Of a stretch of DNA of 24,318 nucleotides, positions 4,267 through 24,318 are shown piece by piece. The notes under the pieces were generated by a model. It was not told the DNA's origin. It saw only the letters and a program-made list of their open reading frames with translations, and made no database searches. The translations under genes and the position numbers were made by a program. Numbering within the stretch: position 1 is the first letter of the stretch; each line of letters begins with the position of its first letter. The stretch is from positions 1 to 24,318 of IMG/VR virus record IMGVR_UViG_3300033146_003505. The stretch is one strand, 5' to 3'. Origin of the DNA: a virus.

Positions 4267-4826
4267 TTATAAATTATCTACCTCATACAATACAATATTA
4301 TTATTACAAATAGGACATATAACCATATGTTCATCATAAGTAGGAGGATTTAACACTTTATCATCATTACTTTTTTTACTAATATTATAATATCTTTTTT
4401 ATCAAAAGTAAATGCACAATTACACTTATCACACTTAGTATTTGCTTGTTCAATTATGTTAGATTGTGGAATATTAAACCGTGGTCTTTCTGTTTGTGTT
4501 TCGATATGTTCTCCAACTGATTTATTAATATTATTAATAATATTATTTGATACTTGTTCTGCATCTTGTTTAGTTTTTATATTTGAAGTGTCGACTGATT
4601 TATTTGGATACATAATTTTAAATATTGTTTGTCTTCCATCCATTAAAATTCCTGCATCATTAAAGTCATCGTGATAATCACTTCTGATTAATATATTAAA
4701 ATCTTCTACTGATAAATATACTACTTCTTTAATTGACTCTTCTGAATTAACATCCCAAACCCACTTATTATCAACTAGTTTATACACTACTTGATTTGTA
4801 TTTATATCTTTAATTTCTGTTTTCAT
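4267..4826 (-). CDS. Zinc-ribbon protein whose two halves lie in different frames
   Basis: The ATG at 4826 opens a frame that stops at 4350 after 158 residues. Residues 1-125 are polar and not recognised, with a likely globular N-terminal part (VYKLVDNKWVWDV, YLSVEDFNILIRSDYHDD). Near the end comes CDKCNC, half of a zinc site. The -1 frame, entered at a run of seven A (4377 down to 4371), continues SNDDKVLNPPTYDEHMV, then CPICNNNIVLYEVDNL, and stops at 4267. The joined product would be about 186 residues with a complete Cys-x2-Cys ... Cys-x2-Cys ribbon. This means programmed -1 frameshifting, a real mutation, or a homopolymer error in the assembly. The start overlaps the small zinc-ribbon gene upstream. 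A GTG five codons upstream is a less likely start. Function unknown; DNA or RNA binding is a guess. Confidence 0.6.
4371..4377 (-). other. A-AAA-AAA slip site in the zinc-ribbon gene
   Basis: Read in the zero frame the codons are GTA-AAA-AAA-GTA. A slip one base back at the A7 run gives AGT-AAT-GAT-GAT and leads into the frame carrying the second zinc knuckle. The ten bases AAAAAAAGTA are identical to those at the tail-chaperone slip site (7379-7388). Confidence 0.45.
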
Positions 4827-4950
4827 CTTCTTTAACCTCACATTTCTTAATATTAACTTTATATGAACATCTAGGACAAGGACAATAATAATCGCTTTTG
4901 CCTTTGTATGTCCATATATAATCGCAATGATGACATTTAATTTTTTTCAT
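4810..4950 (-). CDS. Small zinc-ribbon protein
   Basis: A 46-residue protein, with Cys-His-His-Cys (KCHHCDY) at residues 6-9 and a second knuckle CPCPRC at 23-28, separated by a WTYKGKSDYY segment. This is a compact C-x2-C ... C-x2-C ribbon of a kind common among tiny archaeal proteins; the WxYKGKSxYY linker is characteristic. It probably binds nucleic acid or a protein partner, but no specific role can be given. It begins one base after the stop of the 84-residue gene upstream (TAA-A-ATG) and its end overlaps the start of the next zinc-ribbon gene, so three genes form one minus-strand unit. Confidence 0.75.
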   Translation of the reverse strand: MKKIKCHHCDYIWTYKGKSDYYCPCPRCSYKVNIKKCEVKEDENRN

Positions 4951-4951
4951 T

Positions 4952-5206
4952 TTAATTTGTTGGTCTATTTTCATAATCAATATCATTTAGTAATATTTTT
5001 CTATTTTTAAGTAATAAATACAATATATCTAAATCTTCTGTATTTTCTGATATTAATGTTCTTATATCATCATCAACCAATTGTAATTCAAATTCAAGAG
5101 CAGATTTATAAGTTTCAAATGCTGTTCCATTAATATAATAAATTCCCTTTCTTTTTTTATCTAAATTTAATGATTTTAGTTTTGTGTTTAATTTTCTTTT
5201 ATCCAT
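4952..5206 (-). CDS. Unknown 84-residue protein, first gene of minus-strand island
   Basis: A basic N-terminus (MDKRKLNTKLKSLNLDKKRKG) is followed by IYYINGTAFETYKSALEFEL and a helical, acidic C-terminal half (LVDDDIRTLISENTEDLDILYLLLKNRKILLNDIDYENR). No family is recognised. It opens a unit with two zinc-ribbon genes and is read from its own promoter: GTTTATAAC has its centre 29 bases before the ATG, predicting a leaderless transcript. The unit is inserted against the direction of the head and tail genes, as expected for a moron-type cargo gene set expressed independently of the late genes. Confidence 0.65.
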   Translation of the reverse strand: MDKRKLNTKLKSLNLDKKRKGIYYINGTAFETYKSALEFELQLVDDDIRTLISENTEDLDILYLLLKNRKILLNDIDYENRPTN

Positions 5207-11738: not shown

Positions 11739-12701
11739 ATGACAGTAAAATTATGGGGAGATAAATACCCAACAAAAGCATCAGGAAGCGAAGAAGATTT
11801 ATTAGGAGATGATTTAAACGACACTTATGAATTATTAGTTAATACTGCAATATTAACAGCAGAAAACGCAGTAAGAGTATTACAAGCAAACAATATATAT
11901 ATTAATGGTCCGAACATTATAGTAGATGAGTTTACAGATGCAGATGGAACACAGGGGACAGTTAATACTGGTAGTTCAACTGCTTATTATAATTCAAATA
12001 GCGATGAATATGCTTTAACTTTAACAAACGCATCGGGTAGCGATACACCTTCAACTACTGGAACTTGGACAAATATCAATAATGCTTTTGATGATAATTA
12101 TTTAACAGAAGCAACAATGCCTAATGAGTCAGGAGATTATTCAATAGGAACAATCTTTACTTCAAAACATATAGGTTATTTATATATAAATTTTGATACA
12201 ATTGTAAATACACCTTGTTTAATTAACTTACAAACTTATAATGGTAGCACTTGGGATGATGTAGAGATATTAACTGTTCCTTTAACAGGTCTAGCAATCT
12301 CTAAGTATTATAATATAAATGCATCGGTTGAGGGGGTTAGATTATTATTTAAGCCAGTTGGCTATATGGGGGCATCGGTTTATCAAATTTCGTATGGAAC
12401 TTTTACATCGGGTCAAACTCTAATAGCAGACACAAACACAACAATACTAGATGGTAACGAATTAGGCTTTGCAGTTAGTGTTCCTGATAGCAATATTCCA
12501 ACAGATACTTCAATAGATGTTGTCGTTAGCGACGGAGTTAATAGCACACCATCACAGACAATAGATTCAATTAGTAAGGGTGTAGTAGTTGGAAATAGTA
12601 ATTTAACAAGTGGGACATTAAAAGTAACATTCATATTAAACACTACAGACACATCAAAAACAGCAACTATTCCAAGTATAGGAATTTGTGTATTAAGATA
12701 A
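11739..12701 (+). CDS. Tail fibre / receptor-binding protein candidate
   Basis: A 320-residue protein, very rich in Thr, Ser, Asn and Asp. Residues 1-50 (VKLWGDKYPTKASGSEEDLLGDDLNDTYELLVNTAIL) resemble the attachment segment of fibre proteins, with an immediate helix. Residues 60-215 look like a jelly-roll or carbohydrate-binding beta domain (WTNINNAFDDNYLTEATMP, HIGYLYINFDTIV, LINLQTYNGSTWDDVEIL); residues 220-320 form another beta domain (DTNTTILDGNELGFAVSVPD and a SGTLKVTFIL strand near the end). This combination suits a receptor-binding protein recognising surface glycans or the S-layer. The call is from composition and location at the end of the tail module. Confidence 0.6.
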   Translation: MTVKLWGDKYPTKASGSEEDLLGDDLNDTYELLVNTAILTAENAVRVLQANNIYINGPNIIVDEFTDADGTQGTVNTGSSTAYYNSNSDEYALTLTNASGSDTPSTTGTWTNINNAFDDNYLTEATMPNESGDYSIGTIFTSKHIGYLYINFDTIVNTPCLINLQTYNGSTWDDVEILTVPLTGLAISKYYNINASVEGVRLLFKPVGYMGASVYQISYGTFTSGQTLIADTNTTILDGNELGFAVSVPDSNIPTDTSIDVVVSDGVNSTPSQTIDSISKGVVVGNSNLTSGTLKVTFILNTTDTSKTATIPSIGICVLR

Positions 12702-12702
12702 A

Positions 12703-12921
12703 ATGGTAAAATCAGAAACAGTAAAAAAAGGAAACAAAATAAGTAAAGAGTTCAGAGGTGCACAATTTGAAGAGATAAGCATACTAAGAAAAGGAATATC
12801 TGCTTTAATGGTTATTAGTAACCCTAATAATTATACATCAGAACAAATAACAGAAGCAGAAAATAATTTAGTAAAGTTTGAAGAATATAACACTAAAGTT
12901 AAAAATTTATTAATACCTTAA
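12703..12921 (+). CDS. Small helical protein after the fibre gene
   Basis: A 72-residue protein of mainly helical character: basic start (VKSETVKKGNKISKEFRG), a hydrophobic middle (ISILRKGISALMVISNPNN), and YTSEQITEAENNLVKFEEYNTKVKNLL. It starts one base after the fibre stop (TAA-A-ATG), so it is probably made together with the fibre and could be a fibre chaperone or small tail accessory protein. No family is recognised. It is the last gene of the tail operon; a separate promoter follows. Confidence 0.55.
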   Translation: MVKSETVKKGNKISKEFRGAQFEEISILRKGISALMVISNPNNYTSEQITEAENNLVKFEEYNTKVKNLLIP

Positions 12922-12930
12922 AATCCATAA

Positions 12931-12940
12931 CTTTATAAAT
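12931..12940 (+). promoter_or_regulatory. TATA box for the sequon-rich membrane protein
   Basis: CTTTATAAAT centred at 12935.5 lies 25.5 bases before the ATG at 12961, predicting a leaderless transcript for this gene alone. Confidence 0.6.
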
Positions 12941-12960
12941 ATTTTTTTCTATAAAATATT

Positions 12961-13245
12961 ATGGATATTTCCAAAGATAAATCCAAAAAGTTCAACTGGA
13001 CTATATTAAATCTAACTCTGACTATTATATTAGTAATATTATTAGTATTATATGTAGGAAGATTATCAGATATAAACACAGTAGAACCACAAGATAATAT
13101 GACATTAACTAATGAAACAGTATTAAATATTTCACTAACAGTTAATGAGAACAAAGTTTTAAATATTAGTAATTTGAATGATACTATTATGATTGATGAG
13201 AATAAAACTTTAGCCGATAATAAGACTTTACTCAATCAATCATAA
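12961..13245 (+). CDS. Single-pass membrane protein with sequon-dense outer segment
   Basis: A 94-residue protein: a basic N-terminus (DISKDKSKK), a hydrophobic segment at about 13-33 (LTLTIILVILLVLYVG) and a 60-residue C-terminal tail. Positive charges before the segment place the tail outside. The tail has eight Asn-x-Ser/Thr sequons, at Asn46, 51, 56, 68, 73, 81, 87 and 92, and is otherwise rich in Leu, Thr and Asp. Such density suggests an N-glycosylated extracellular stalk. Repeats of NKTL and VLNIS are visible. It has its own promoter and is followed by a terminator hairpin, so it may be expressed apart from the tail genes. Possible roles are lysis, superinfection exclusion or surface modification; none can be shown from sequence. 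Confidence 0.65.
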   Translation: MDISKDKSKKFNWTILNLTLTIILVILLVLYVGRLSDINTVEPQDNMTLTNETVLNISLTVNENKVLNISNLNDTIMIDENKTLADNKTLLNQS

Positions 13246-13280
13246 TATACTCATTTTTACAGATATACATAATACATTAA

Positions 13281-13302
13281 AAAAGGATAGTAATATTCTT
13301 TT
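13281..13302 (+). terminator. Hairpin terminator with GTAA loop
   Basis: AAAAGGATA pairs with TATTCTTTT (nine pairs, one G-U) around a GTAA tetraloop, a GNRA-type loop, and is followed by a T-rich stretch. It lies between the membrane protein and the next promoter. Confidence 0.55.
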
Positions 13303-13318
13303 ATTCTATTTTCTAAAC

Positions 13319-13328
13319 ATTTATAAAG
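13319..13328 (+). promoter_or_regulatory. TATA box for the papain-like enzyme gene
   Basis: ATTTATAAAG preceded by AAAC is centred 25.5 bases before the ATG at 13349, directly after the terminator hairpin, giving a leaderless transcript. Confidence 0.65.
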
Positions 13329-13348
13329 TTTTAAATTAATATAATTCT

Positions 13349-13990
13349 ATGGAAGATATAAGAGTTATAAATATAATTTTTTATAAGGGTAAGTCATTCT
13401 TTTCAAGATTGATTAGATGGAAAACATCATCAGAGTATTCACATTGTGAGATAATCAATAATTTTGATGATAATGGTTTTTCAACATTTGGAGCATTGCC
13501 AAACAAAGGAGTTCAGTTTGCAGGTATTAACTGGCACAAGAAAGGGACTGAATACGACATATTCGAAACAGAAGTAACTAAAACACAGTTCGAAGAGTTT
13601 AGGCAATACTTAACCAAGCAATATAAAAAGAAATATGATTATTTAGGTGTATTAGGGTTTATTGATAGTAGAGTTAAACAAGATGATAATAAATGGTTTT
13701 GTAGTGAATTAGTCTACAAGTCACTAAAACATATAGAAATAGAATTGTTCAATAGAGATATTAAATTTCCTAGTCCAAGTCTTGTTTCTATATCACCATT
13801 ATTAAAATTAGTTGAGAGTGGAGTAGTTGAAGATAAACTAACAGAGGAACTAATAAAGCAAAATAATGATATGCAAGATTTATTAAATAAAGTTAAAAAA
13901 AGTTCTATTCAGGGGGATAAGTTAAAGAGTGCAGTAAGTTGCAATGGATTAACTGGCACAAATTTTGATAGAAGATTAAATAATGTATAA
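13349..13990 (+). CDS. Permuted papain-like (YiiX/YycO-type NlpC/P60 superfamily) enzyme
   Basis: A 213-residue protein with the layout of permuted NlpC/P60 enzymes. Residues 8-34 read NIIFYKGKSFFSRLIRWKT, then SEYSHCEI, in which His32 and Glu34 belong to the His-containing motif; residues 115-122 (NKWFCSELV) hold the catalytic Cys118. In the permuted group His precedes Cys in sequence, as here. These enzymes cut or transfer amide or ester bonds; targets vary, and in a virus they may attack cell-envelope material, pseudomurein-like polymers or lipids. Residues 160-213 are an extra helical, basic tail. It has its own promoter and is followed by small genes 2-3 bases apart. Both catalytic residues are present; the substrate is unknown. 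Confidence 0.7.
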   Translation: MEDIRVINIIFYKGKSFFSRLIRWKTSSEYSHCEIINNFDDNGFSTFGALPNKGVQFAGINWHKKGTEYDIFETEVTKTQFEEFRQYLTKQYKKKYDYLGVLGFIDSRVKQDDNKWFCSELVYKSLKHIEIELFNRDIKFPSPSLVSISPLLKLVESGVVEDKLTEELIKQNNDMQDLLNKVKKSSIQGDKLKSAVSCNGLTGTNFDRRLNNV

Positions 13991-13992
13991 AA

Positions 13993-14227
13993 ATGGATAA
14001 TATTATTAATTCTATAACAGGTTTTGATGAAGAGTATTTTATCAAAGAAAAATTAAATGAAATAACAGATGAATGTTATATATTTTCTATTGAGAAAAAA
14101 AAAAGAACTTGAATTAAAATATCCTAACCTAAAGTATTATGAAATTACGCAAAAATTAGATAACTTAATACATAAAAAATTTTATAAAAAAGAAATAATA
14201 TATATAAATCAATTAATGAAATTATAA
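13993..14227 (+). pseudogene. Small gene interrupted at an A10 run
   Basis: ATG at 13993, two bases after the preceding stop, opens a frame that ends at 14112 after 39 codons. Just before that stop is a run of ten A (14095-14104). If one A is removed, the frame continues as KELELKYPNLKYYEITQKLDNLI and on to a stop at 14225-14227, three bases before the next start. The joined protein would have about 78 residues, helical and basic, unknown in function. Sound spacing to both neighbours suggests one gene of which the run length varies, or an assembly error. Slippage of polymerase at A10 could also restore the frame in a fraction of transcripts. Confidence 0.55.
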
Positions 14228-14230
14228 AAA

Positions 14231-14581
14231 ATGGTAACTAAAGGTCAATTAAATAATGCTCTTGACAATCACAGAGCAAAATTAAGAAAAGAAAGAACAG
14301 AAGACTTGCTTATTAGTAATATTAATCAAAACGATTGTATTAAAACTATTACCGGTGATATAGGTGACATAATAAACGATTTTCACTTCAAAGATAGAGA
14401 AGACAAAGAAATACAAGCAAAATTAGAAAAGTCTTGGAAATGGCAATTTAAACAATTATTAAAACCTAAGAAATTATTATTATTACTTGCTTATGCTACT
14501 GCTATTATTACTGCTTCTTATTTTGCAGAAGATATAGAAAATATAAAAATATTATTTGATATCATTAATGTGTTTAATTAA
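14231..14581 (+). CDS. Helical protein with C-terminal membrane segment
   Basis: A 116-residue protein. Residues 1-75 are polar and helical (GQLNNALDNHRAKLRKERTE and EDKEIQAKLEKSWKWQFKQLL), followed by PKK and one hydrophobic segment at about 81-98 (KLLLLLAYATAIITASYF), then a short acidic end. The layout, coiled-coil then membrane anchor, is seen in several phage proteins of the lysis or tail-end region, but no family is recognised. It follows the papain-like enzyme and the interrupted small gene in one unit and is closed by a hairpin terminator. A lysis accessory role is possible from the neighbourhood only. Confidence 0.6.
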   Translation: MVTKGQLNNALDNHRAKLRKERTEDLLISNINQNDCIKTITGDIGDIINDFHFKDREDKEIQAKLEKSWKWQFKQLLKPKKLLLLLAYATAIITASYFAEDIENIKILFDIINVFN

Positions 14582-14593
14582 ATAAACTTTAAC

Positions 14594-14617
14594 TAATATT
14601 TATTAATTAAAATATTA
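14594..14617 (+). terminator. Hairpin terminator
   Basis: TAATATTT and AAATATTA form a perfect 8-bp stem with an 8-base loop, followed by TCTTATTTGTTT. It ends the unit begun at 13349. Confidence 0.5.
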
Positions 14618-14645
14618 TCTTATTTGTTTAATTGTAAATACAAAG

Positions 14646-14655
14646 GTTTATAAAG
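14646..14655 (+). promoter_or_regulatory. TATA box for the 14680 unit
   Basis: GTTTATAAAG centred at 14650.5 lies 29.5 bases before the ATG at 14680; the transcript would be leaderless or nearly so. Confidence 0.6.
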
Positions 14656-14679
14656 AAAGCCGTATATAATATATTTATA

Positions 14680-14865
14680 ATGGAAAAAACAATACTTACA
14701 AAAGAAAATTCAAGAAATGTGTGTGCTATTAGAAATATAAATGATAGTAATTCTGAAATAGAACATTTTTATATTGATGAAAATGGAGAATATATTAGAG
14801 ATAATCAAACTATAATGAATGAATCTGAATTTAAAGATTATGAAATCATATATTATAAAAAATGA
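14680..14865 (+). CDS. Unknown 61-residue acidic protein
   Basis: A small protein with two likely beta segments (SRNVCAIRNIND; EIEHFYIDENGEYIRD) and an acidic C-terminal half ending IIYYKK. No motif is recognised. It is the first gene of a three-gene unit read from a clear TATA box, and its stop overlaps the start of the next gene (ATGA at 14862), implying coupled translation. Confidence 0.55.
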   Translation: MEKTILTKENSRNVCAIRNINDSNSEIEHFYIDENGEYIRDNQTIMNESEFKDYEIIYYKK

Positions 14866-15110
14866 TTTTAACTGCAATTAAATATAATAATTTATTTTTT
14901 AGTCACTTTGAAGAGATTGAAATAAAAAATGGTTATGGCGGTCACGGGATAGGTGTTGGTATTTGGAAAGATTTTGAACCTGTATTTGTTAAAAAACCTA
15001 TATATTTTACAAAAAGAAGTTTAGGAGATAAAATAAATATTATAATTAAATCAATGCAAAATAATATTATATCTTTAAATAATATAGAGTTAATAACAAA
15101 GAGTGCTTAA
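14862..15110 (+). CDS. Unknown 82-residue protein
   Basis: The protein begins MILTAIKYNNLFFSHFEEIEI and has a Gly/His-rich turn, GYGGHGIGVGIW, at residues 24-35, then PVFVKKPIYFTKRSLGDKINIIIKSMQNNII. The glycine-rich part may be a loop of a small alpha/beta domain. No family is recognised. It overlaps the preceding gene by four bases and leads into the next by TAA-A-ATG. Confidence 0.55.
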   Translation: MILTAIKYNNLFFSHFEEIEIKNGYGGHGIGVGIWKDFEPVFVKKPIYFTKRSLGDKINIIIKSMQNNIISLNNIELITKSA

Positions 15111-15111
15111 A

Positions 15112-15279
15112 ATGGTAAAATTATTGCATAAAATATATGAAAAAGAAATTAAAGAAGCTATTGATAATGGTAATTATTTATTTAAATTAGTTCCTGCTAA
15201 AAAAACACATTCAGTTCCTGTATATATTCCTAAAAAGTATGAAGGAAAAAAGATTATGATTTTAATATTAGATATTTAA
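15112..15279 (+). CDS. Small protein resembling archaeal DUF2080-type domains
   Basis: A 55-residue protein: a basic helix (VKLLHKIYEKEIKEAIDNG), then LFKLVPAKKTHSVPVYIPKKYEGKKIMILILDI. The segment VPVYIPKKYEGKKIMILI recalls the swapped-hairpin type pattern (VYxPKxxxGKKVxVxI) of small archaeal DUF2080-like and AbrB-like proteins, which bind DNA. The resemblance is short and therefore weak. It is the third gene of its unit, starting one base after the previous stop, and is followed by a hairpin terminator. Confidence 0.5.
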   Translation: MVKLLHKIYEKEIKEAIDNGNYLFKLVPAKKTHSVPVYIPKKYEGKKIMILILDI

Positions 15280-15331
15280 TTAACTTTATAAATTCTCATA
15301 ATAATATCTATTTTAACCTTATTGGTTGAGT

Positions 15332-15356
15332 AAAATATATAATCTTATATTTTTTT
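15332..15356 (+). terminator. Hairpin terminator with T run
   Basis: AAAATATA and TATATTTT form an 8-bp stem with a 6-base loop (TAATCT), running into a T-only tract. It ends the 14680 unit. A TATA-like CTTTATAAAT at 15283-15292 would start a transcript near 15316 that ends here after some 40 bases; this is noted but not called as an RNA. Confidence 0.55.
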
Positions 15357-15378
15357 AATTCTAAAGTAGTTACTATTG

Positions 15379-15388
15379 TTTATAAATA
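15379..15388 (+). promoter_or_regulatory. TATA box for the 15425 unit
   Basis: GTTTATAAAT centred at 15383.5 should start transcription near 15411, leaving a leader of about 14 bases. The sequence before the ATG, ATAAATAAAAATG, matches the leader end of the three repeated early promoters on the other strand. Confidence 0.55.
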
Positions 15389-15424
15389 TTATGTTATTTA
15401 TATAAGTAATATTAATAAATAAAA

Positions 15425-15709
15425 ATGGAAAATAAAATAAAACAAATAAAGAAAAGCATAAAAAATCTAAGATATAACATACAAGCTAAAAATGTAGAGA
15501 ATAATACACAAACTAATACAGCAGAATTCAAAGAGTTATCAAAACAAGTATTAGAACTAGAAAATATGATGTTTCAAGATAAACTATTTACAGAGAAAAG
15601 CGTTACAAGAATTATTAGAAGGCACGATAAAGCAGGAAAACAAGGAGTATTAGTATTTAGTGGTGATGAGATTAATAAGTGGGTTAAGATTACTGAGGTA
15701 AGACAATGA
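15425..15709 (+). CDS. Unknown 94-residue helical protein
   Basis: The first 60 residues are helical and rich in Lys, Gln and Asn with heptad-like spacing (KIKQIKKSIKNLRYNIQAK; FKELSKQVLELENMMFQ), suggesting a coiled coil. The C-terminal third (TEKSVTRIIRRHDKAGKQGVLVFSGDEINKWVKITEV) is a small mixed domain with a basic IIRRHDKAGKQG patch. No function is recognised. It is the first of two overlapping genes; its stop is within the ATGA of the next start. Confidence 0.55.
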   Translation: MENKIKQIKKSIKNLRYNIQAKNVENNTQTNTAEFKELSKQVLELENMMFQDKLFTEKSVTRIIRRHDKAGKQGVLVFSGDEINKWVKITEVRQ

Positions 15710-15873
15710 ATAAAGAAAAGATAAACTTATTTCAAGAAGATTTTGATAAAATAAATAAACTAATTAATGAGATTTGTCAAGATAGATATTCAGAAACAGC
15801 AGTTATTCCATCAGGAACTAGAACTATGCTAAGAAGTTTAATAATAGAAAACTTAGATAAACTTAACAATTAA
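15706..15873 (+). CDS. Unknown 55-residue protein
   Basis: A small protein starting in the ATGA overlap with the previous gene: MNKEKINLFQEDFDKINKLINEICQ, followed by DRYSETAVIPSGTRTMLRSLIIENLDKLNN. Two helices joined by a PSGTRT turn are likely. It is the last plus-strand gene before the strand switch at about 15,900; beyond it transcription is convergent with the candidate RNA and the minus-strand region. No family is recognised. Confidence 0.55.
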   Translation: MNKEKINLFQEDFDKINKLINEICQDRYSETAVIPSGTRTMLRSLIIENLDKLNN

Positions 15874-15924
15874 TTCTTAGAGTAAAAATAAAGTATTATG
15901 TAATAAATTTTTAAAATGATTTTT

Positions 15925-16080
15925 AAAAAAATCAATAAACAACCTCGCGACACCACATAATAACATATTGCAAATCATTATTAATCGTTGTAACGCGTCT
16001 AAACAATTATGTATTACAAACCATAAAAGTTTATGAGATTGTTTATTGATAACATCATAATCAGAACAAGTCCTTTCTGA
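15925..16080 (-). ncRNA. Candidate structured non-coding RNA
   Basis: An archaeal TATA box at 16104-16113 predicts a minus-strand start near 16080. From there the RNA would open with a hairpin, TCAGAA and TTCTGA around an 8-base loop (16080-16061), then a 16-bp closing stem: 16050-16035 with 15946-15931, perfect except for one G-U pair that exists only on this strand. The stem is followed directly by a U run (15931-15925), as in a terminator. The enclosed 88 bases contain a CATAA/TTATG hairpin, an ACATAAT/ATTATGT pairing and GC-richer patches unusual here. Frames inside are at most 14 codons. Box, 5' hairpin, stem and U run line up on one strand. No known RNA family is recognised. Confidence 0.55.
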
Positions 16081-16103
16081 ATGATAATAATTAAAAGTTC
16101 TGT

Positions 16104-16113
16104 ATTTATAAAT
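16104..16113 (-). promoter_or_regulatory. TATA box for the candidate RNA
   Basis: The palindromic ATTTATAAAT, preceded on the minus strand by AAAC, is the standard box of this genome. It overlaps the stop of the 51-residue gene upstream and lies 28 bases from the first base of the predicted RNA. Confidence 0.55.
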
Positions 16114-16261
16114 GTTTTCTTTTTGGCAGTATTCTTAATATTCGCATAGCAAAATTATTCTTTTCTTCTTCTGTGTCGAACTCATAATAATTAATAAAAG
16201 GTGGTCTGTTCTTTGTTACTCTTTCAACTATTAGAAATATTGTTTGCTTTAATTTAGTCAT
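16106..16261 (-). CDS. Unknown 51-residue basic protein
   Basis: ATG at 16261 opens TKLKQTIFLIVERVTKNRPP, then FINYYEFDTEEEKNNFAMRILRILPKRKHL. The protein is basic, with a likely strand, a turn and a helix; FYEFDTEEEKNNFAMRIL looks like the end of a small alpha/beta domain. A TTAATAAA element centred about 25 bases upstream could drive it as a leaderless gene. Its last codons (Lys-His-Leu-stop) are also the TATA box of the candidate RNA. No family recognised. Confidence 0.5.
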   Translation of the reverse strand: MTKLKQTIFLIVERVTKNRPPFINYYEFDTEEEKNNFAMRILRILPKRKHL

Positions 16262-16336
16262 AATAAAAAGAATTAAATTAATTTTATTAATGTTTGTTAG
16301 AAAAGTTCTTCAGTTTTAGTATAGTTTGCGAGATAT

Positions 16337-16531
16337 TTATTCATACCTTTTAACTAATTCGCCTTTGCAATTAGTATATTCATCACAAATAGACCAGTTT
16401 TTATAATCTTCTTTGATTGTATCAACATTTAATATTTTGCCATACATCTCTGTTAAGTATTTTAAAACTGATTCCTCTCCTGCTTTAAATCCTTTGTTCC
16501 ACGATTCTGTTAGTTCTTTGTTTTTATTCAT
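16337..16531 (-). CDS. Unknown 64-residue protein
   Basis: The protein begins MNKNKELTESWNKGFKAGEESVLKYLTEMYGKI, a start often found in tiny phage early proteins (a WNKGFKAGEE helix), followed by LNVDTIKEDYKNWSICDEYTNCKGELVKRYE with two cysteines. It is the last gene of the operon that starts at 17675 and overlaps the previous gene by four bases (ATGA). Function unknown. Confidence 0.6.
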   Translation of the reverse strand: MNKNKELTESWNKGFKAGEESVLKYLTEMYGKILNVDTIKEDYKNWSICDEYTNCKGELVKRYE

Positions 16532-16659
16532 TTTTTATTTAAATATTCTCCAATCGTTCCATAGACTGCAAATAAATCTTCTTCAGATACTTCTTCAATA
16601 TCTGCACCCCAATTGTTATCTAATATCTCATTTAAATCTTCTCTACCCATATCATTCAT
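16528..16659 (-). CDS. Unknown 43-residue acidic protein
   Basis: A very short acidic protein: MNDMGREDLNEILDNNWGADIEEVSEEDLF and AVYGTIGEYLNKK. Its start lies within the end of the preceding gene and its stop within the start of the next, so it is fixed in a chain of ATGA-type overlaps, which supports a real gene. No family is recognised; small acidic early proteins of viruses are sometimes inhibitors of host enzymes, but nothing here shows that. Confidence 0.6.
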   Translation of the reverse strand: MNDMGREDLNEILDNNWGADIEEVSEEDLFAVYGTIGEYLNKK

Positions 16660-16804
16660 TTTGCTCTTCCTCAAATCTAATTATAGTATTAATCATCACA
16701 CTACCTGCTGCATCTTTTTTAGCAAGTAATCTTTGTCTTAATTCTTGCATCTTCTCTAACCCTCTTGCTTTTAACACTTTTTCTACTTCTCTTAATTTTT
16801 TCAT
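16652..16804 (-). CDS. Unknown 50-residue helical protein
   Basis: A highly charged helix: MKKLREVEKVLKARGLEKMQ, then ELRQRLLAKKDAAGSVMINTIIRFEEEQNE. It could form one long amphipathic helix followed by a short strand. It overlaps the upstream gene by four bases and the downstream gene by eight. The tight overlaps and lack of stops support coding; no function is recognised. Confidence 0.6.
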   Translation of the reverse strand: MKKLREVEKVLKARGLEKMQELRQRLLAKKDAAGSVMINTIIRFEEEQNE

Positions 16805-17031
16805 TTTTCAAATGTTATTAATATATGTTTGTTATAATATTCTATATATACATTATTTATCTTACAAAACTTATTTAGTTTTTGCAAATCAGCTGGTGGA
16901 ACATTGAAATGTATCTCAAAATTATAATATTCTGTTAAATTATCAAAATATTCACTTGTCTGCTCTTTATCATAATATACACAATTTTTTATGACAGTTC
17001 TTATTTTTATTTTTAATATCTTTTTATTCAT
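16801..17031 (-). CDS. Unknown 76-residue protein
   Basis: An alternating strand-helix protein: KKILKIKIRTVIKNCVYYDKE, SEYFDNLTEYYNFEIHFN, VPPADLQKLNKFCKINNVYIEYYNKHILITFEK. The order beta-alpha-beta-beta and the PPADLQKLNKFCKINN helix recall small ferredoxin-like domains, but no family is recognised. It overlaps both neighbours by four bases (ATGA) and follows the nuclease gene, so it may work with it. Confidence 0.6.
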   Translation of the reverse strand: MNKKILKIKIRTVIKNCVYYDKEQTSEYFDNLTEYYNFEIHFNVPPADLQKLNKFCKINNVYIEYYNKHILITFEK

Positions 17032-17357
17032 TTTTTAATATTGTATTCAAACCTCAACTTCTCGCCTTTTGGACTAGCATAATAGCATTTAACATCTTTT
17101 ATACTTAGTTTTGGATGATTGTTAATATATTGCTTTACGAAGTGTTGCTTATGTGTTCTTAGTTGGTGTAGTGCTTTATTCTGATGACCATTACATTTAT
17201 ACTCAAACAAAAATAAAGTATTGTTTTGAACACCTAGTAAATCAACATCGCTATATTTATATTGCACTTCAAGTTCAATATTAGTTAATTCATCTTTTAA
17301 CTTTGCTTCTAATTTCTTTAATCCGTTATAATGCTTTCCATTAGTTACTTTTGTCAT
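17028..17357 (-). CDS. PD-(D/E)XK-type nuclease candidate
   Basis: A 109-residue protein. After a helical start (YNGLKKLEAKLKDELTNIELEVQ) comes YSDVDLLGVQNNTLFLFEYKCN with Asp39, Glu52 and Lys54, the D...ExK core of the restriction-endonuclease-like fold, followed by ALHQLRTHKQHF with Gln65, a frequent fourth residue. The core spacing (13 residues between Asp and Glu) is normal. Such proteins act as Holliday-junction resolvases, restriction-like or repair nucleases; the size suits a resolvase or single-domain nuclease. Neighbouring operons encode a single-strand annealing protein and a helicase, so a role in recombination or replication is likely. It overlaps the next gene by four bases. Confidence 0.65.
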   Translation of the reverse strand: MTKVTNGKHYNGLKKLEAKLKDELTNIELEVQYKYSDVDLLGVQNNTLFLFEYKCNGHQNKALHQLRTHKQHFVKQYINNHPKLSIKDVKCYYASPKGEKLRFEYNIKK

Positions 17358-17458
17358 TATTCTTTCATTAACTCTAATAATTTTTCCATATTACAATAAA
17401 CAATATATCCATTACTTAATCTTATTTTATACTGGTCTAATGTTTTTATAATAGACAT
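17357..17458 (-). CDS. Tiny 33-residue protein
   Basis: MSIIKTLDQYKIRLSNGYIV and YCNMEKLLELMKE. The start is one base after the upstream stop (TAA-A-ATG) and its stop shares a base with the next start (TAATG), so it is locked between two genes. The YKIRLSNGYIVYC stretch looks like a beta hairpin. Function unknown; the exact coupling is the main support. Confidence 0.5.
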   Translation of the reverse strand: MSIIKTLDQYKIRLSNGYIVYCNMEKLLELMKE

Positions 17459-17459
17459 T

Positions 17460-17675
17460 TTAAAATAAAAAAGTAATTCCTCTTCTACTCTCTACGCTTT
17501 TAATCTCTTCTCTATTAATATTAATACTAAGCTTAGTCTTTTTAAATCCTAATCTTTCTCTTAATGTTAATTTAGGTTGCTTGCTAAGAATACTTACTTT
17601 ATCATCACTAATAGTGATTCCTCTCATTGTTTGCACAAAGTCTTTGTTTAATCCTCTTGTTTTATATTTTGTCAT
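17460..17675 (-). CDS. Unknown 71-residue basic protein, first gene of early operon A
   Basis: A basic protein: MTKYKTRGLNKDFVQTMRGI, then TISDDKVSILSKQPKLTLRERLGFKKTKLSININREEIKSVESRRGITFLF. The segment PKLTLRERLGFKKTKLSININREEI is likely a helix and strand; no family recognised. It is the first gene after promoter cassette A and opens an operon reaching at least to 16337, which includes the nuclease candidate. The ATG follows GGATAAATAAAA, identical in the leaders of the other two cassettes. Confidence 0.6.
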   Translation of the reverse strand: MTKYKTRGLNKDFVQTMRGITISDDKVSILSKQPKLTLRERLGFKKTKLSININREEIKSVESRRGITFLF

Positions 17676-17711
17676 TTTTATTTATCCGTTCATCTTTCGA
17701 TGTTAATATAT

Positions 17712-17753
17712 TAATATAACATATTATATATAAATGTTTATAACTATTATATA
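17712..17753 (-). promoter_or_regulatory. Repeated early promoter, copy A
   Basis: A 42-base core identical to copies at 19300-19341 and 20478-20519. On the minus strand it holds two direct-repeat halves, ATATAATAGTTATA and ATATAATATGTTATA, on either side of AAACATTTAT, so box and possible operators overlap. In this copy the leader is longer and includes CATC-GAAA-GATG (17702-17691), a small hairpin with a GAAA tetraloop, before GGATAAATAAAAATG. It serves the gene at 17675. Confidence 0.7.
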
Positions 17754-17817
17754 ATGACAATATAATTAATATATAAAGAAGTGTATCTATTTTAAAGTTA
17801 CGATTAGAGTTAGATGT

Positions 17818-17906
17818 AAAAGGTAAGATAAAGCTTTCAGATTTGGATAAATAAAAAATATAAAATTTAAGTGTGCTTAAAAATAAATTAAATGTTTATC
17901 TTACCT
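17818..17906 (-). ncRNA. Second candidate structured RNA (strand less certain)
   Basis: AGGTAAGATAAA at 17821-17832 and TTTATCTTACCT at 17895-17906 form a perfect 12-bp stem enclosing 62 bases, within which TTTAAG and CTTAAA (17866-17881) make a hairpin with a 4-base loop. A minus-strand TATA box at 17927-17936 predicts a start near 17903, at the outer end of the stem, and the far arm is followed on that strand by TTTT. The plus strand also has a weaker box (17770-17777). No reading frame of note is present. This could be a small RNA, a terminator-like element or an operator. Confidence 0.4.
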
Positions 17907-17926
17907 AAAGAATTATGTATTTATAA

Positions 17927-17936
17927 TTTTATAAAT
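17927..17936 (-). promoter_or_regulatory. TATA box before the second candidate RNA
   Basis: On the minus strand AAACATTTATAAAA matches the boxes used by called genes elsewhere; centre 17931.5. It begins eight bases after the stop of the 30-residue membrane protein gene, and no gene follows on that strand until 17675. Confidence 0.5.
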
Positions 17937-17944
17937 GTTTGTTA

Positions 17945-18037
17945 TTATCCGTGTTTATTAATATCAATAACCATTAATATAAACCATACAAACAAAAGTA
18001 TTGATGCAGTTATTAATATGTGACCTACTAACTCCAT
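17945..18037 (-). CDS. Tiny membrane protein (30 residues)
   Basis: MELVGHILITASILLFVWFI and LMVIDINKHG: a single hydrophobic helix at about 5-25 with a short polar end. The start shares a base with the stop of the upstream 26-residue membrane protein (TGATG), so the two are almost certainly translated together. Such pairs can be complex subunits or regulators of membrane proteins. It is the last gene of the operon read from cassette B. Confidence 0.5.
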   Translation of the reverse strand: MELVGHILITASILLFVWFILMVIDINKHG

Positions 18038-18117
18038 CAGAACATACCTCTAATATAATCAATAACCAAATAAAACGCTATTAGAAAAGCTGTTAATAAT
18101 TTAATTTCTAGTGTCAT
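18037..18117 (-). CDS. Tiny membrane protein (26 residues)
   Basis: MTLEIKLLTAFLIAFYLVID and YIRGMF: one hydrophobic helix flanked by charged residues. It starts in an ATGA overlap with the 106-residue gene upstream and ends in a TGATG overlap with the next, which supports both being real despite their size. Function unknown. Confidence 0.5.
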   Translation of the reverse strand: MTLEIKLLTAFLIAFYLVIDYIRGMF

Positions 18118-18434
18118 TTTTTTACGTTAATTGTTAATTTTTCACTAGTTGTTACTTTCTCATACTTTTCTAATACATTATTCTTAATTAGTAATTGCTT
18201 AACTCTGTGAGTGTCTAATCTCTTACTTTCGTATGACTTCAATACTACAGAATACTTATCATTAATATAATCTCCTTTCTCTTCTACTTGGTCGTGAATA
18301 TGATTTTTTAGAGATTTCATTCTGTTCTCTATCTCTTTCTTCATAGTTTCATATTGCTTATATTCTGCAATGTTCTCATCCATAGATTTAATCTGTGGAT
18401 TCTCAAACTCTGTGACTGCTAATACTTGTTTCAT
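18114..18434 (-). CDS. Recombination-associated coiled-coil protein candidate
   Basis: A 106-residue protein: KQVLAVTEFENPQIKSMDENIAEY, then a helical, heptad-rich middle (KQYETMKKEIENRMKSLKNHIHDQVEEKG), and YSVVLKSYESKRLDTHRVKQLL with an end ILKNNVLEKYEKVTTSEKLTI-like stretch. The final SYESKRLDT...KYEKVTTSEKLTI pattern is similar to small proteins encoded beside phage recombinases or exonucleases. Its start lies one base after the stop of the annealing protein gene (TAA-A-ATG), so they are probably made together. A role as an accessory to single-strand annealing is inferred. Confidence 0.55.
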   Translation of the reverse strand: MKQVLAVTEFENPQIKSMDENIAEYKQYETMKKEIENRMKSLKNHIHDQVEEKGDYINDKYSVVLKSYESKRLDTHRVKQLLIKNNVLEKYEKVTTSEKLTINVKK

Positions 18435-18435
18435 T

Positions 18436-18882
18436 TTATTTTTTTACCTCTTCTTCTTTAAATTCTTCTCCTTCAAATATATTCAATCCTAAACCTTGAA
18501 ATGCTAAAGATTTTACTAATGCCCTCTTAATTGCAGTATTAACTTCAAATACTGTTAGCATATCAGTAGGTATCGCTTTATTATAATTATTAGTTACAGG
18601 ATAGAACTCGATATATTCCTGTTCGTTTATAGTTGTTCCAACCTTAACAAAAACTCCTGAATTCTTTGCTTTACTTACTGCAAATACATTAATACCAGTA
18701 TCATATTTAATACCATCCTTAACATTCTCTTTTGTATATACCTTAAATGATGCATTAGGATAACACTTTTTTACTTCTTTCCAAGCAGTTGCCCAACTTG
18801 CATAGTCAAATCGTCCTTTCTTCTCTGTCTTTAATTTTACACCACTTAATGTTTCAAATACACTCTTTTCTTTCTGTTCCAT
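18436..18882 (-). CDS. Single-strand annealing protein (Sak/DUF1071 type)
   Basis: A 148-residue protein that promotes annealing of complementary DNA strands in viral recombination and repair. It shows the DUF1071 pattern: SVFETLSGVKLK at the start, FDYASWATAWKEVKKCYPNASFKVY at 25-49, a GVFVKVGTTINEQEYIEFYPV beta part at 76-96, NKAIPTDMLT at 101-110 and NTAIKRALVKSLAFQGLGLNIFEGEE at 115-140. The YxSWAxAW and KALAxxGLGLxIxxGE elements are the strongest markers; here ALVKSLAFQGLGLNIFEGEE is nearly complete. Rad52-like folds are known for the Sak group. The gene stands between a zinc-finger gene and a coiled-coil accessory gene in the operon from cassette B. Confidence 0.82.
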   Translation of the reverse strand: MEQKEKSVFETLSGVKLKTEKKGRFDYASWATAWKEVKKCYPNASFKVYTKENVKDGIKYDTGINVFAVSKAKNSGVFVKVGTTINEQEYIEFYPVTNNYNKAIPTDMLTVFEVNTAIKRALVKSLAFQGLGLNIFEGEEFKEEEVKK

Positions 18883-18885
18883 CTT

Positions 18886-19086
18886 CTAATCCTCATCATA
18901 CTCTTCTAAATCTTGCTCTACTACTATTTCTTTAATACTTTCAATAGTTTCAGTATAGCAATTAATTAGACACTTTTCGGCTTCTGCTAGTTCTTCGTGC
19001 AGTTCTCCACATATAGGACATTTAAACATTACTGTTTTCATTTCACTATTGCCATCTCTGCTAGTGCATACTTCTAATCTTGTCAT
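18886..19086 (-). CDS. Small zinc-finger protein
   Basis: ATG at 19086 is chosen because it follows the upstream stop as TAA-A-ATG; an earlier in-frame ATG would overlap that gene. The 66-residue protein begins MTRLEVCTSRDGNSEMKT and holds CPICGELHEELAEAEKCLINC at about 22-42, a Cys-x2-Cys-x12-Cys-x3-Cys set suited to one zinc ion, then a very acidic end (EQDLEEYDED). It may bind nucleic acid or a protein. It lies three bases before the annealing protein gene, suggesting a role in the same process. Confidence 0.65.
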   Translation of the reverse strand: MTRLEVCTSRDGNSEMKTVMFKCPICGELHEELAEAEKCLINCYTETIESIKEIVVEQDLEEYDED

Positions 19087-19087
19087 T

Positions 19088-19276
19088 TTAAGCACTCTCC
19101 ATAACTCTATGATAAGTTTCATAAATATCTTTTGTTTTCTCATTTAAAAAACTATGAATTCTTCTTGCATTTTTCTTTTTGCTTTTGTAATTCTCATTAA
19201 AATCTATGCTATCTTGACCAGATAACATTCCTGTTTTTGCTTTATTATTTAGTGTTGAGTTTTTTTTACTTACCAT
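19088..19276 (-). CDS. Unknown 62-residue basic protein, first gene of early operon B
   Basis: A basic, Asn/Lys/Ser-rich protein: MVSKKNSTLNNKAKTGMLSG, then QDSIDFNENYKSKKKNARRI, then HSFLNEKTKDIYETYHRVMESA. The final HSFLNEKTKDIYETYHRVM is probably helical. It is the first gene behind promoter cassette B and is joined to the zinc-finger gene by TAA-A-ATG. No family is recognised. Confidence 0.6.
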   Translation of the reverse strand: MVSKKNSTLNNKAKTGMLSGQDSIDFNENYKSKKKNARRIHSFLNEKTKDIYETYHRVMESA

Positions 19277-19351
19277 TTTTATTTATCCTTGTTAATAACT
19301 AATATAACATATTATATATAAATGTTTATAACTATTATATAGTTAATAAAT
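19274..19351 (-). promoter_or_regulatory. Repeated early promoter, copy B (78 bases identical to copy C)
   Basis: Seventy-eight bases are identical to 20452-20529. The copy includes the start codon of the gene at 19276, the leader with GGATAAATAAAA, the 42-base core, and on its far side the last three codons and stop of the upstream gene at 19335-19550. A TATATAAA-type box centred near 19318.5 would start transcription at about 19290, leaving a 14-base leader; a second box, GTTATAAAC, is 10 bases further up. Confidence 0.75.
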
Positions 19352-19550
19352 TTTTTAATACTACTAATCTATTCTTTTCTTGTTCAAACAATCTTTTAGT
19401 AATTATTTGCCTTTTTGTTATCCTTTCGCCTCGCATTCTTGCTTTATAGTGGTTGTATTTCAAGTCTGACTTTCCATTCTCTAGTCTGAAATATATATCT
19501 TTGCCGTTACTTAATGATATATTTACTTGGTTTGAGATTATGCTTTTCAT
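19335..19550 (-). CDS. Unknown 71-residue basic protein
   Basis: A protein with a beta-rich start (MKSIISNQVNISLSNGKDIYFRLE) and a strongly basic, helical rest (YNHYKARMRGERITKRQIITKRLFEQEKNRLVVLKNLLTI). The basic RMRGERITKRQIITKR stretch suggests nucleic acid binding. The last codons (Leu-Thr-Ile-stop) lie inside promoter cassette B. It overlaps the upstream gene by four bases and ends the operon read from cassette C. No family is recognised. Confidence 0.6.
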   Translation of the reverse strand: MKSIISNQVNISLSNGKDIYFRLENGKSDLKYNHYKARMRGERITKRQIITKRLFEQEKNRLVVLKNLLTI

Positions 19551-19774
19551 TCTTCTACCTCTGGCAAATTATCACCTGCAACATAACTATATACTACTGA
19601 TTTGTTATCAAGTTTCTTTATCCAACACTTGCTTATCCAGTCTAATATCTTGCTTTTTGTTCCTGCAACTGATAACATATATATCCTTTCAAAATCTATA
19701 AAGTGAAGTTCTCCTCGCTTATTCAAAAGGTTTATAACCTTTTTATCATTAATATTTATTATCTCGCTTGTCAT
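19547..19774 (-). CDS. Unknown 75-residue protein, possibly winged-helix-like
   Basis: The sequence runs TSEIININDKKVINLLNKRGELHFIDFERIYMLSVAGTKSKILDWISKCWIKKLDNKSVVYSYVAGDNLPEVEE. Helix-helix-helix then a beta hairpin (CWIKKLDNKSVVYSYV) is the order of small winged-helix domains, so DNA binding is possible, but no family motif is clear. It lies 13 bases downstream of the zinc-ribbon gene and overlaps the next gene by four bases. Length and charge are ordinary for an early regulatory protein. Confidence 0.55.
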   Translation of the reverse strand: MTSEIININDKKVINLLNKRGELHFIDFERIYMLSVAGTKSKILDWISKCWIKKLDNKSVVYSYVAGDNLPEVEE

Positions 19775-19787
19775 TTTAATTCTATAA

Positions 19788-20282
19788 TTATTTCACCTCA
19801 AACACTCTACTACACTTCAAGCATTTATATTTTCTTACTTCGTGCATTGATGAGCCGTATATTTTTACATCATTATTACCACAAATATCGCAAACTATGT
19901 TTATATTATTTTCGACTTTTAGCTCTATCTTTTGTAATAACTGTTTGAATGTTCTGTAAATTATTAGTTCTGTTTTATCTTGCATAGTATAATCAACAAT
20001 GCTAGATGACCAACTTCTTCTAGTTCCGTTTCTATAATCGAAAAACAGAGCAGTATCTTTTTCTAAGAATTTAAATATATTCTTTGATATTTCTTGAAAT
20101 CCTAGTTTATGAACTATATCCAACTCTTCTTTTAGTTGATTTCGCTTATTAGATTGCTCTAATTGAAGAGATTTTATCTCGCTTATCAAAGTATCAACAT
20201 CAACTGACTTTCGTTCGCCTTTGGCTGTTGTAGTTGTGTATTCGTTCTTTTTTATTATTTTGATTATTTGACTTAGTTTCAT
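19788..20282 (-). CDS. Helical protein with C-terminal zinc ribbon
   Basis: ATG at 20282 (TAA-A-ATG with the upstream stop) gives 164 residues. The N-terminal part is helical with coiled-coil character (LSQIIKIIKKNEYTTTT; DVDTLISEIKSLQLEQSNKRNQLKEELDIVHKLG). The middle (KNIFKFLEKDTALFFDYRNGTRRSWSSSIVDYT) is mixed. The C-terminus is a clear zinc ribbon: VCDICGNNDVKIYGSSMHEVRKYKC with a following LKCSRVFEVK, i.e. Cys-x2-Cys ... Cys-x2-Cys. Proteins of this layout often bind nucleic acid or recruit a partner. An in-frame GTG five codons upstream is a less likely start. Function unknown. Confidence 0.65.
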   Translation of the reverse strand: MKLSQIIKIIKKNEYTTTTAKGERKSVDVDTLISEIKSLQLEQSNKRNQLKEELDIVHKLGFQEISKNIFKFLEKDTALFFDYRNGTRRSWSSSIVDYTMQDKTELIIYRTFKQLLQKIELKVENNINIVCDICGNNDVKIYGSSMHEVRKYKCLKCSRVFEVK

Positions 20283-23001: not shown

Positions 23002-23049
23002 TTTATTTTTTATATAAGAATTAAGGAGTTAATCAAACAAAAACGATAT

Positions 23050-23059
23050 ATTTATAAAT
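23050..23059 (-). promoter_or_regulatory. TATA box for the helicase operon
   Basis: Minus-strand ATTTATAAAT, centre 23054.5, would start transcription near 23026, about 25 bases before the ATG at 23001; this is one of the longer leaders in the window. Confidence 0.6.
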
Positions 23060-23282
23060 AAATAAAAACTATTATTTGTATAGTTCTACACTATCTAAGT
23101 CTGAGAACTCCATATTCTCTAACTTTTAAATTAATCAAATACTCTTTATAATTAATTAAATCTAAAAGTCTAATTCATAAAACTCTTAATTTATTTATAA
23201 TTATTTCTTATTATTTAATAGTGGTTACTAAATATTTTTGATATTTATTTTTTTTATATTTTATAAAAATAAACTATAATAT

Positions 23283-23616
23283 AATTGGACTTTAGACTTA
23301 ATATATTTCAATTGTCCTTTCAATTGTCCTTTTATTTGTCTTTTAATTTTGATACTATACTATACTATACTACTATTATATATACTTTAGACTATTGGAC
23401 AATTCAAATATATAATATATTAAGATAAACTAAAATATAGTATAAAAAAATATAAGTGTAAAAAAAAAAGAAATAGAATAGGGAATTTCAATTGTCCAAA
23501 TGTCCAAAAAAAATATACATATTACAATAGACAGTCTGTATTGTTAATATATTGCATTTAAATTTTAGACATTTGAAGGACAATTGAAATGTGATGAACT
23601 GTCCTTTTTAGCTGTC
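23283..23616. repeat. Iteron-like repeat cluster, candidate replication origin
   Basis: TTTCAATTGTCC occurs head-to-tail at 23306-23317 and 23318-23329 and again at 23486-23497; its exact reverse complement is at 23578-23589 and a near copy at 23397-23408. Partial copies lie at 23330-23340, 23498-23505, 23567-23577 and 23598-23604. ACTTTAGACT is repeated at 23289-23298 and 23384-23393, next to ATTGGAC. Between the clusters are (ACTAT)n and AT-only stretches that would melt easily, and AGACAGTCT sits in a dyad near 23530. Repeats plus AT-rich DNA beside the helicase gene suit an origin bound by an initiator. Confidence 0.6.
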
Positions 23617-23719
23617 TAGTTGTTTTTATTATATATATTTTGGTTTTATTGTTAGTAGTAACATATTTTTTTAGCATTTTTTTAGTAAGATTTTAACATT
23701 ATTACTACTTTTTGCAAAG

Positions 23720-23729
23720 ATTTATAAAG
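23720..23729 (+). promoter_or_regulatory. TATA box for the ParB-methyltransferase gene
   Basis: ATTTATAAAG centred at 23724.5 predicts a start near 23753, the first base of the tandem 11-base repeat, and a leader of about 24 bases before the ATG at 23777. Confidence 0.6.
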
Positions 23730-23752
23730 TCAAAGAGTTAAATGTTAGTATA

Positions 23753-23774
23753 ATTAATCGGTCATTAATCGGTC
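23753..23774 (+). repeat. Tandem 11-base repeat in the leader, possible operator
   Basis: ATTAATCGGTC is repeated twice without a gap and ends two bases before the ATG at 23777. Its location at the predicted transcription start would let a bound protein block the gene. The CGGTC part is GC-richer than its surroundings. Confidence 0.6.
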
Positions 23775-23776
23775 TT

Positions 23777-24318
23777 ATGGTTTTTCAGATGGTAAATATA
23801 AGAAACAAAATAGTAATAAAGGAGCTTTCTAGCTTATCAGAACACGAAAAGAACAATAAATCTCATCCTCAGGAGCAGGTAGATATATTGAAGCAAAATA
23901 TACTCAAATTTGGCTTTACATCGCCTTTTTTAATTTCTGAAGATTGTAAGATTATTGCAGGTCACGGAAGAAAATTGGCTTGTGATGAATTAGGTATAAA
24001 AAAAGTGCCTTGTATTATTATTGATGATTTATCAGAAGATGAAATTAAGGCTTTGAGAATTGCTGATAATAGAATAGGAGAACTTGGAGAAACTAACTGG
24101 GCTTTCGTAAAAGAAGAGTGGGAAGAATTAAAAGATAGTGGTTTAGACTTCTTAACAGGGTATAAAGAAGAAGATTTCTTAGATATGATAGAAGAACAAG
24201 GAGAAGTAGAAGAAGATGACTTTGAAGCTCCTGATGATATTAATGAGATTGAAACTGATATAAAACTTGGTGATGTATTTAAACTTGGAGAACATAGGTT
24301 AATGTGTGGGAGTTCTAC
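23777..24318 (+). CDS. ParB-like domain fused to DNA methyltransferase, cut by window end
   Basis: The frame is open to the right edge and gives 180 residues of a longer protein. Residues about 12-100 form a ParB/Srx-like domain: ELSSLSEHEKNNKSHPQEQV, LKQNILKFGFTSPFLISEDC, KIIAGHGRKLACDELGIKKV with the GHGR core, and ALRIADNRIGEL. After an acidic linker comes LGDVFKLGEHRLMCGSS, the standard opening of the adenine or cytosine-N4 methyltransferases found behind such ParB domains. The catalytic part is beyond the window. ATG at 23777 and one at 23789 are both in frame. Such fusions are frequent in mobile elements and viruses and may methylate viral DNA against restriction or affect gene expression. 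Confidence 0.8.
   Translation, partial: MVFQMVNIRNKIVIKELSSLSEHEKNNKSHPQEQVDILKQNILKFGFTSPFLISEDCKIIAGHGRKLACDELGIKKVPCIIIDDLSEDEIKALRIADNRIGELGETNWAFVKEEWEELKDSGLDFLTGYKEEDFLDMIEEQGEVEEDDFEAPDDINEIETDIKLGDVFKLGEHRLMCGSS

Follow-up and report, generated by a model that had tools for sequence, protein, structure and literature searches.

The locus at the junction of the two main gene blocks of this virus, where the late and early units converge, raises the question of whether the DNA between them encodes an RNA of its own. The window, that is the whole stretch of DNA analysed, is the complete virus record of 24,318 bases. The record encodes tailed-virus proteins (major head protein, head maturation protease, tape measure, tail and neck), together with a Sak-like annealing protein and a DUF5906/primase helicase. 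The host seems to be an archaeon. The viral promoters are archaeal in type, with an A[AT]A[CA]ATTTATA motif and the TATA spacing of leaderless genes, and sigma-70-like sites are no commoner in the genome than in shuffles (63 versus 66.4). An initial annotation proposed that the locus gives rise to a separate small RNA from the minus strand. This is the best reading of the promoter, stem, composition, lack of ORFs and a parallel second unit, although the detailed internal fold that was proposed with it is not upheld. That the element, referred to here as RNA1, is a separate noncoding transcript of an archaeal tailed virus is considered moderately probable. The features of the locus are as follows.

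15706-15873, plus strand: 55-aa ORF, the last gene of the late unit, convergent with RNA1.
15925-15931, minus strand: run of seven U (U7), the likely terminator of RNA1.
15931-15946, minus strand: 3' arm of the RNA1 closing stem.
15947-16034, minus strand: RNA1 interior of 88 nt with 28% G+C, part of a 120-mer with 5 CpG; internal fold not significant.
16035-16050, minus strand: 5' arm of the 16-bp RNA1 closing stem.
16061-16080, minus strand: RNA1 5' hairpin, UCAGAA and UUCUGA separated by 8 nt.
16080-16084, minus strand: predicted RNA1 transcription start, at about 16082, placed by the TATA-to-start spacing of leaderless genes.
16104-16117, minus strand: RNA1 promoter (BRE/TATA-type), AAACATTTATAAAT, matching the genome-specific motif.
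16106-16261, minus strand: 51-aa ORF, the last gene of the early unit, with its stop codon within the RNA1 promoter.

The TATA box (16113-16104), the hairpin from 16080, the stem arms (16050-16035 with 15946-15931), the 88 nt between them and the U run all lie where the initial annotation had put them. The RNA1 promoter fits the genome's own archaeal consensus (AAAACATTTATAAATA) and has a PWM score of 9.0 versus a mean of -14.8. The motif A[AT]A[CA]ATTTATA is found at 8 sites in the genome versus 1.9 in shuffles, and the motif [AT]A[AC]ATTTATAAA at 5 sites versus 0.62. For leaderless genes of this virus, the distance from the start codon back to the first T of the TATA box is 28-34 nt. Because of this spacing, the start of RNA1 is placed at 16082 +/-2; it had been assigned exactly to 16080, a precision of one base that the spacing does not allow. 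RNA1 therefore has, as read from its sequence, the promoter of its own at correct spacing that characterizes an independent archaeal small RNA. The stop codon of the 51-aa ORF (AAA CAT TTA TAA) falls in the TATA box, part of whose sequence may therefore be coding. A promoter-like site also precedes the 51-aa ORF itself, at a distance of 29 nt.

The closing stem consists of 15 Watson-Crick pairs and one G-U pair, and the first U of U7 (15931) doubles as its last base. RNAfold gave -38.2 kcal/mol for the minus strand versus -27.1 for the plus strand. The comparison with shuffled controls that had been suggested earlier yielded a z of -3.43 for the whole of RNA1, which is due to the closing stem, and -3.71 for the stem-loop part. 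Only the closing stem is significant, because shuffles fold as well as the interior alone (z -0.14) or the 5' hairpin (z -0.87). The TCAGAA/TTCTGA hairpin is thus present but folds no better than expected, and the additional hairpins once read into the interior are unsupported. The argument for the minus strand, that U16038-G15943 becomes a C/A mismatch on the plus strand, is correct but concerns a single site. In a count restricted to stems that span no more than 160 nt, have 15 or more Watson-Crick pairs and lead into a T run, the window contained one versus 0.005 expected per dinucleotide-shuffled genome; the RNA1 stem is the strongest such stem-plus-T-run within the 24 kb.

Composition also sets the element apart. 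The RNA1 stem-loop has 28% G+C and 5 CpG per 120 nt, versus a mean of 17.7% G+C (maximum 26.7%) and at most 3 CpG in other noncoding 120-mers, and 5 CpG are reached in only 0.6% of the genome's 120-nt windows. A noncoding RNA gene classically stands out as an island of higher G+C amid AT-rich intergenic DNA. No ORF within RNA1 exceeds 33 codons and the longest one extends beyond the U run, in line with the earlier statement that no gene of useful size lies inside; a gene for a short protein was rejected on these grounds.

The strong promoters of the genome number eight, and six of them are 29-59 nt upstream of a gene start. The remaining two are orphans with no gene downstream, located at 16112 (RNA1) and 17935, the latter belonging to a second unit, RNA2. 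Both orphan promoters, and 0 of the 6 gene promoters, are accompanied by a stem with 12 or more Watson-Crick pairs whose 5' arm begins between -3 and +40 nt relative to the predicted start. On the minus strand, stems with this many pairs occur at 0.0005 per nt, which corresponds to approximately 0.02 expected per promoter, a number that overstates the weight of the comparison because it was made after both stems had been seen. This pairing of promoter and stem, although post hoc, is the strongest argument that the orphan sites are noncoding transcription units and not chance. A further TATA box without a gene was observed at 15284-15357 (plus strand), where two hairpins and U7 follow at approximately +1 (z -2.76). 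This element could be a very short transcript, and is likely a terminator of the upstream late genes; the promoter at 15285 with its double hairpin was set aside as a third unit for that reason. The features of the second unit are as follows.

17821-17906, minus strand: RNA2, a perfect 12-bp stem (17906-17895 with 17832-17821) closing 62 nt.
17845-17857, minus strand: RNA2 loop segment UUUUUAUUUAUCC, a perfect 13-nt complement of GGATAAATAAAAA.
17930-17940, minus strand: RNA2 promoter AAACATTTATA, the second orphan promoter.

The 5' arm of the RNA2 stem begins at the predicted +1, and the fold has a z of -3.47. The 3' end is less certain than the start, because only four U are present on the 3' side of the stem. 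The sequence GGATAAATAAAAA directly precedes the ATG of three early genes on the minus strand (starts 20454, 19276 and 17675), and the start-codon leader that would face the RNA2 loop is GGAUAAAUAAAAAUG. In the regions ahead of these genes (20505-20454, 19327-19276 and 17739-17675, minus strand), the promoters are nearly identical (AACATTTATATATAATATGTTATATTA), and the leaders are similar and share the end GGATAAATAAAAATG. The three leaders count as one target, because they are copies. A leader match as good was found for 2 of 1000 RNA2 shuffles, and the matches to the RNA2 segment listed elsewhere in the genome are the opposite strands of such leaders. When duplex energies were compared across all gene starts, two of the three leaders took the first ranks, a result that none of 100 shuffles equalled; the third was among the top five and was equalled by 2 of 100. 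The match is to be read with caution, being A/U-rich and the outcome of a search over many sites. RNA2 would most likely cover the start codons of the three early mRNAs. The evidence for a role in early-gene control pertains to RNA2 and not to RNA1. Neither viral leaders nor RNA2 were more complementary to RNA1 than controls, and RNA1 as an antisense RNA to either was rejected; a host RNA or a protein is therefore a possible partner. The roles that the initial annotation suggested for RNA1, in replication, host defence or late gene control, are conjectural.

The main rival to a separate transcript is that the early mRNA ending in the 51-aa gene simply continues to the U run, such that the element is a 3'-UTR with its terminator, the long stem guards the 3' end of the mRNA, and the TATA-like string is nothing other than the codons K-H-L-stop. 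The placement is favorable to this explanation, since the element lies on the same strand, 25-180 nt past the stop codon of this last early gene (16261-16106), with the U run located where the convergent units meet; the promoter motif is also expected approximately 2 times by chance per shuffled genome. It is less consistent with the 88-nt loop, which is far from that of a terminator hairpin, a structure that archaeal terminators do not need (PMC8716108). Moreover, the match to the consensus extends beyond the TATA core into the promoter context, and the orphan promoter of RNA2 has the same layout of promoter followed by stem where there is no stop codon to account for it. A 3'-UTR is regarded as unlikely, although more likely than the other rivals.

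Two further explanations place the signal in the DNA or in chance. The arms could be inverted repeats at the termini of a small mobile element (MITE); alternatively, the strand switch could hold a cruciform or a replication-terminus site. A 120-bp unit with inverted ends of 16 bp and a GC skew that changes sign at approximately 16 kb might suggest a DNA-level element of this sort. The skew, however, tracks gene orientation, and the promoter and U run stand immediately outside the arms at positions appropriate for an RNA. A MITE would be expected to have further copies with matching inverted ends; no second element with exact 12-nt arms at such spacing turned up in the viral contigs, and the genome collection gave only two unrelated AT-rich matches with dissimilar interiors. 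A DNA-level element is accordingly quite improbable. Least probable is a chance inverted repeat in AT-rich intergenic DNA beside a chance TATA string. Long stems do arise in such a genome: another 16-bp stem, without a U run, is present in coding DNA at 7603-7536, and 21% of shuffled genomes contain stems of at least 15 Watson-Crick pairs when no T run is required. Adding the T run reduces the expectation to the 0.005 given above, and coincidence is also disfavored by the promoter, the composition and the parallel RNA2.

A separate noncoding RNA1 resembles several known RNAs, and matched none of the families searched for. In Rfam 15, nothing in the window matched at the gathering threshold, including RNA2; the only match to the RNA1 region, snR69, had 17.5 bits versus a gathering threshold of 50 (E 1.7) and was dismissed as chance. 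ARAGORN found 0 tRNA or tmRNA genes in the window. Archaeal box C/D and H/ACA guide RNAs are, like RNA1, small, archaeal and noncoding with a terminal stem. Box C/D sRNAs are defined by an RUGAUGA C box and a CUGA D box flanking the terminal stem, whereas on reading the sequences neither RNA1 nor RNA2 has a C box within its closing stem. The RNA1 stem is followed by UUUUUU, with no ACA/ANA box just 3' of it, unlike in H/ACA sRNAs. A classical hairpin terminator was also rejected, as the loop is 88 nt and not the short loop of a G+C-rich hairpin; a terminator scan of 12000-20000 found none. Adenovirus VA RNA, EBER (Pol III-type) and Y RNAs are approximately 100-160 nt, with a long stem clamping the ends, a U run at the 3' end and no ORF. 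The resemblance is one of layout only; in RNA1 the clamp is preceded by a 5' hairpin and a linker, and the interior is only weakly folded.

The description of the element as new holds as far as the Rfam, phage, plasmid, viral-contig and genome collections reach. Proteins and DNA patterns used as queries against viral contigs, 85k genomes, phages and plasmids, collections from which near relatives may have been left out, yielded no relatives. The capsid protein, a 76-aa early protein and the primase retrieved no relatives from the viral contigs, and the primase and C92 peptidase have only distant phage matches (21-31% identity). Sak is the only gene that matches well, and it is common to Lactococcus phages and to contigs that share nothing else. 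The 80 loci of a Sak-alignment scan were rejected as relatives, with only Sak shared; the SD-poor Sak loci inspected resemble Bacteroidetes-type phages. DNA patterns for the promoter-leader, stem pair, RNA2 and RNA1 core retrieved nothing related. Matches in Mycoplasma and Bacteroidota shared only the arms, the match in locus L089 looks like coding DNA, and blastn against phages and plasmids gave chance matches only.

The separate-transcript reading suggests how RNA1 could be made. The host archaeal polymerase would start at the TATA promoter, at approximately 16082 on the minus strand, and stop at the U run near 15925 to give an RNA of approximately 155 nt; both ends are predicted from promoter and U-tract rules. 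Archaeal termination relies on U-tracts of 4-7 U, and a classical hairpin is not strictly needed (PMC8716108). The 16-bp stem would clamp the 3' end to the body of the RNA, which should protect it, and would present an open, largely unstructured and relatively G+C-rich loop of 88 nt to another RNA or a protein. From this layout we infer a stable RNA with a regulatory role. Action by base pairing is a tentative suggestion, and doubtful for RNA1.

RNA1 and RNA2 may form a pair of clamped-loop regulatory RNAs. The transcriptome of HFTV1, an archaeal tailed virus, features prominent antisense RNAs with a reported use in the timing of late genes (PMC12542753), and RNA control is therefore plausible for a virus of this kind. 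Both viruses are tailed and, in the present case apparently, archaeal, with noncoding transcripts that have their own starts (predicted here), and expression timing is the role proposed in HFTV1 (PMC12542753). The HFTV1 antisense RNAs lie opposite their would-be partner genes (PMC12542753), whereas RNA1 is intergenic with a long closing stem and the three mRNAs would be reached by RNA2 in trans. In the fullest scenario, RNA2 would be a trans-antisense RNA that shuts three early operons through their shared leader, and RNA1 its counterpart on a host or late viral target, the two promoter-driven RNAs together forming an RNA-based switch from early to late expression. This scenario is speculative and regarded as unlikely. 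Few noncoding RNAs of archaeal viruses have been catalogued, and an RNA pair with its own promoters, one member having specific predicted targets, would offer a directly testable case in which an archaeal tailed virus times its early genes through RNA.

Several observations concern the record as a whole. It is probably a fragment; terminase and portal were not seen in it. A ParB_N-like protein (23777-24316, plus strand; Pfam E 1.2e-4, below cut-off) runs past the record end and apparently starts the late unit. The adjacent 768-nt noncoding divergent region (23002-23769) contains ATTTCAATTGTCC / GGACAATTGAAAT repeat units in both orientations and a TATACTATACTATA run, and is likely the replication origin. 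Within the late block, three small reverse-oriented ORFs (4350-5206, minus strand) coincide with a local reversal of GC skew, and this group is possibly an inserted cargo module.
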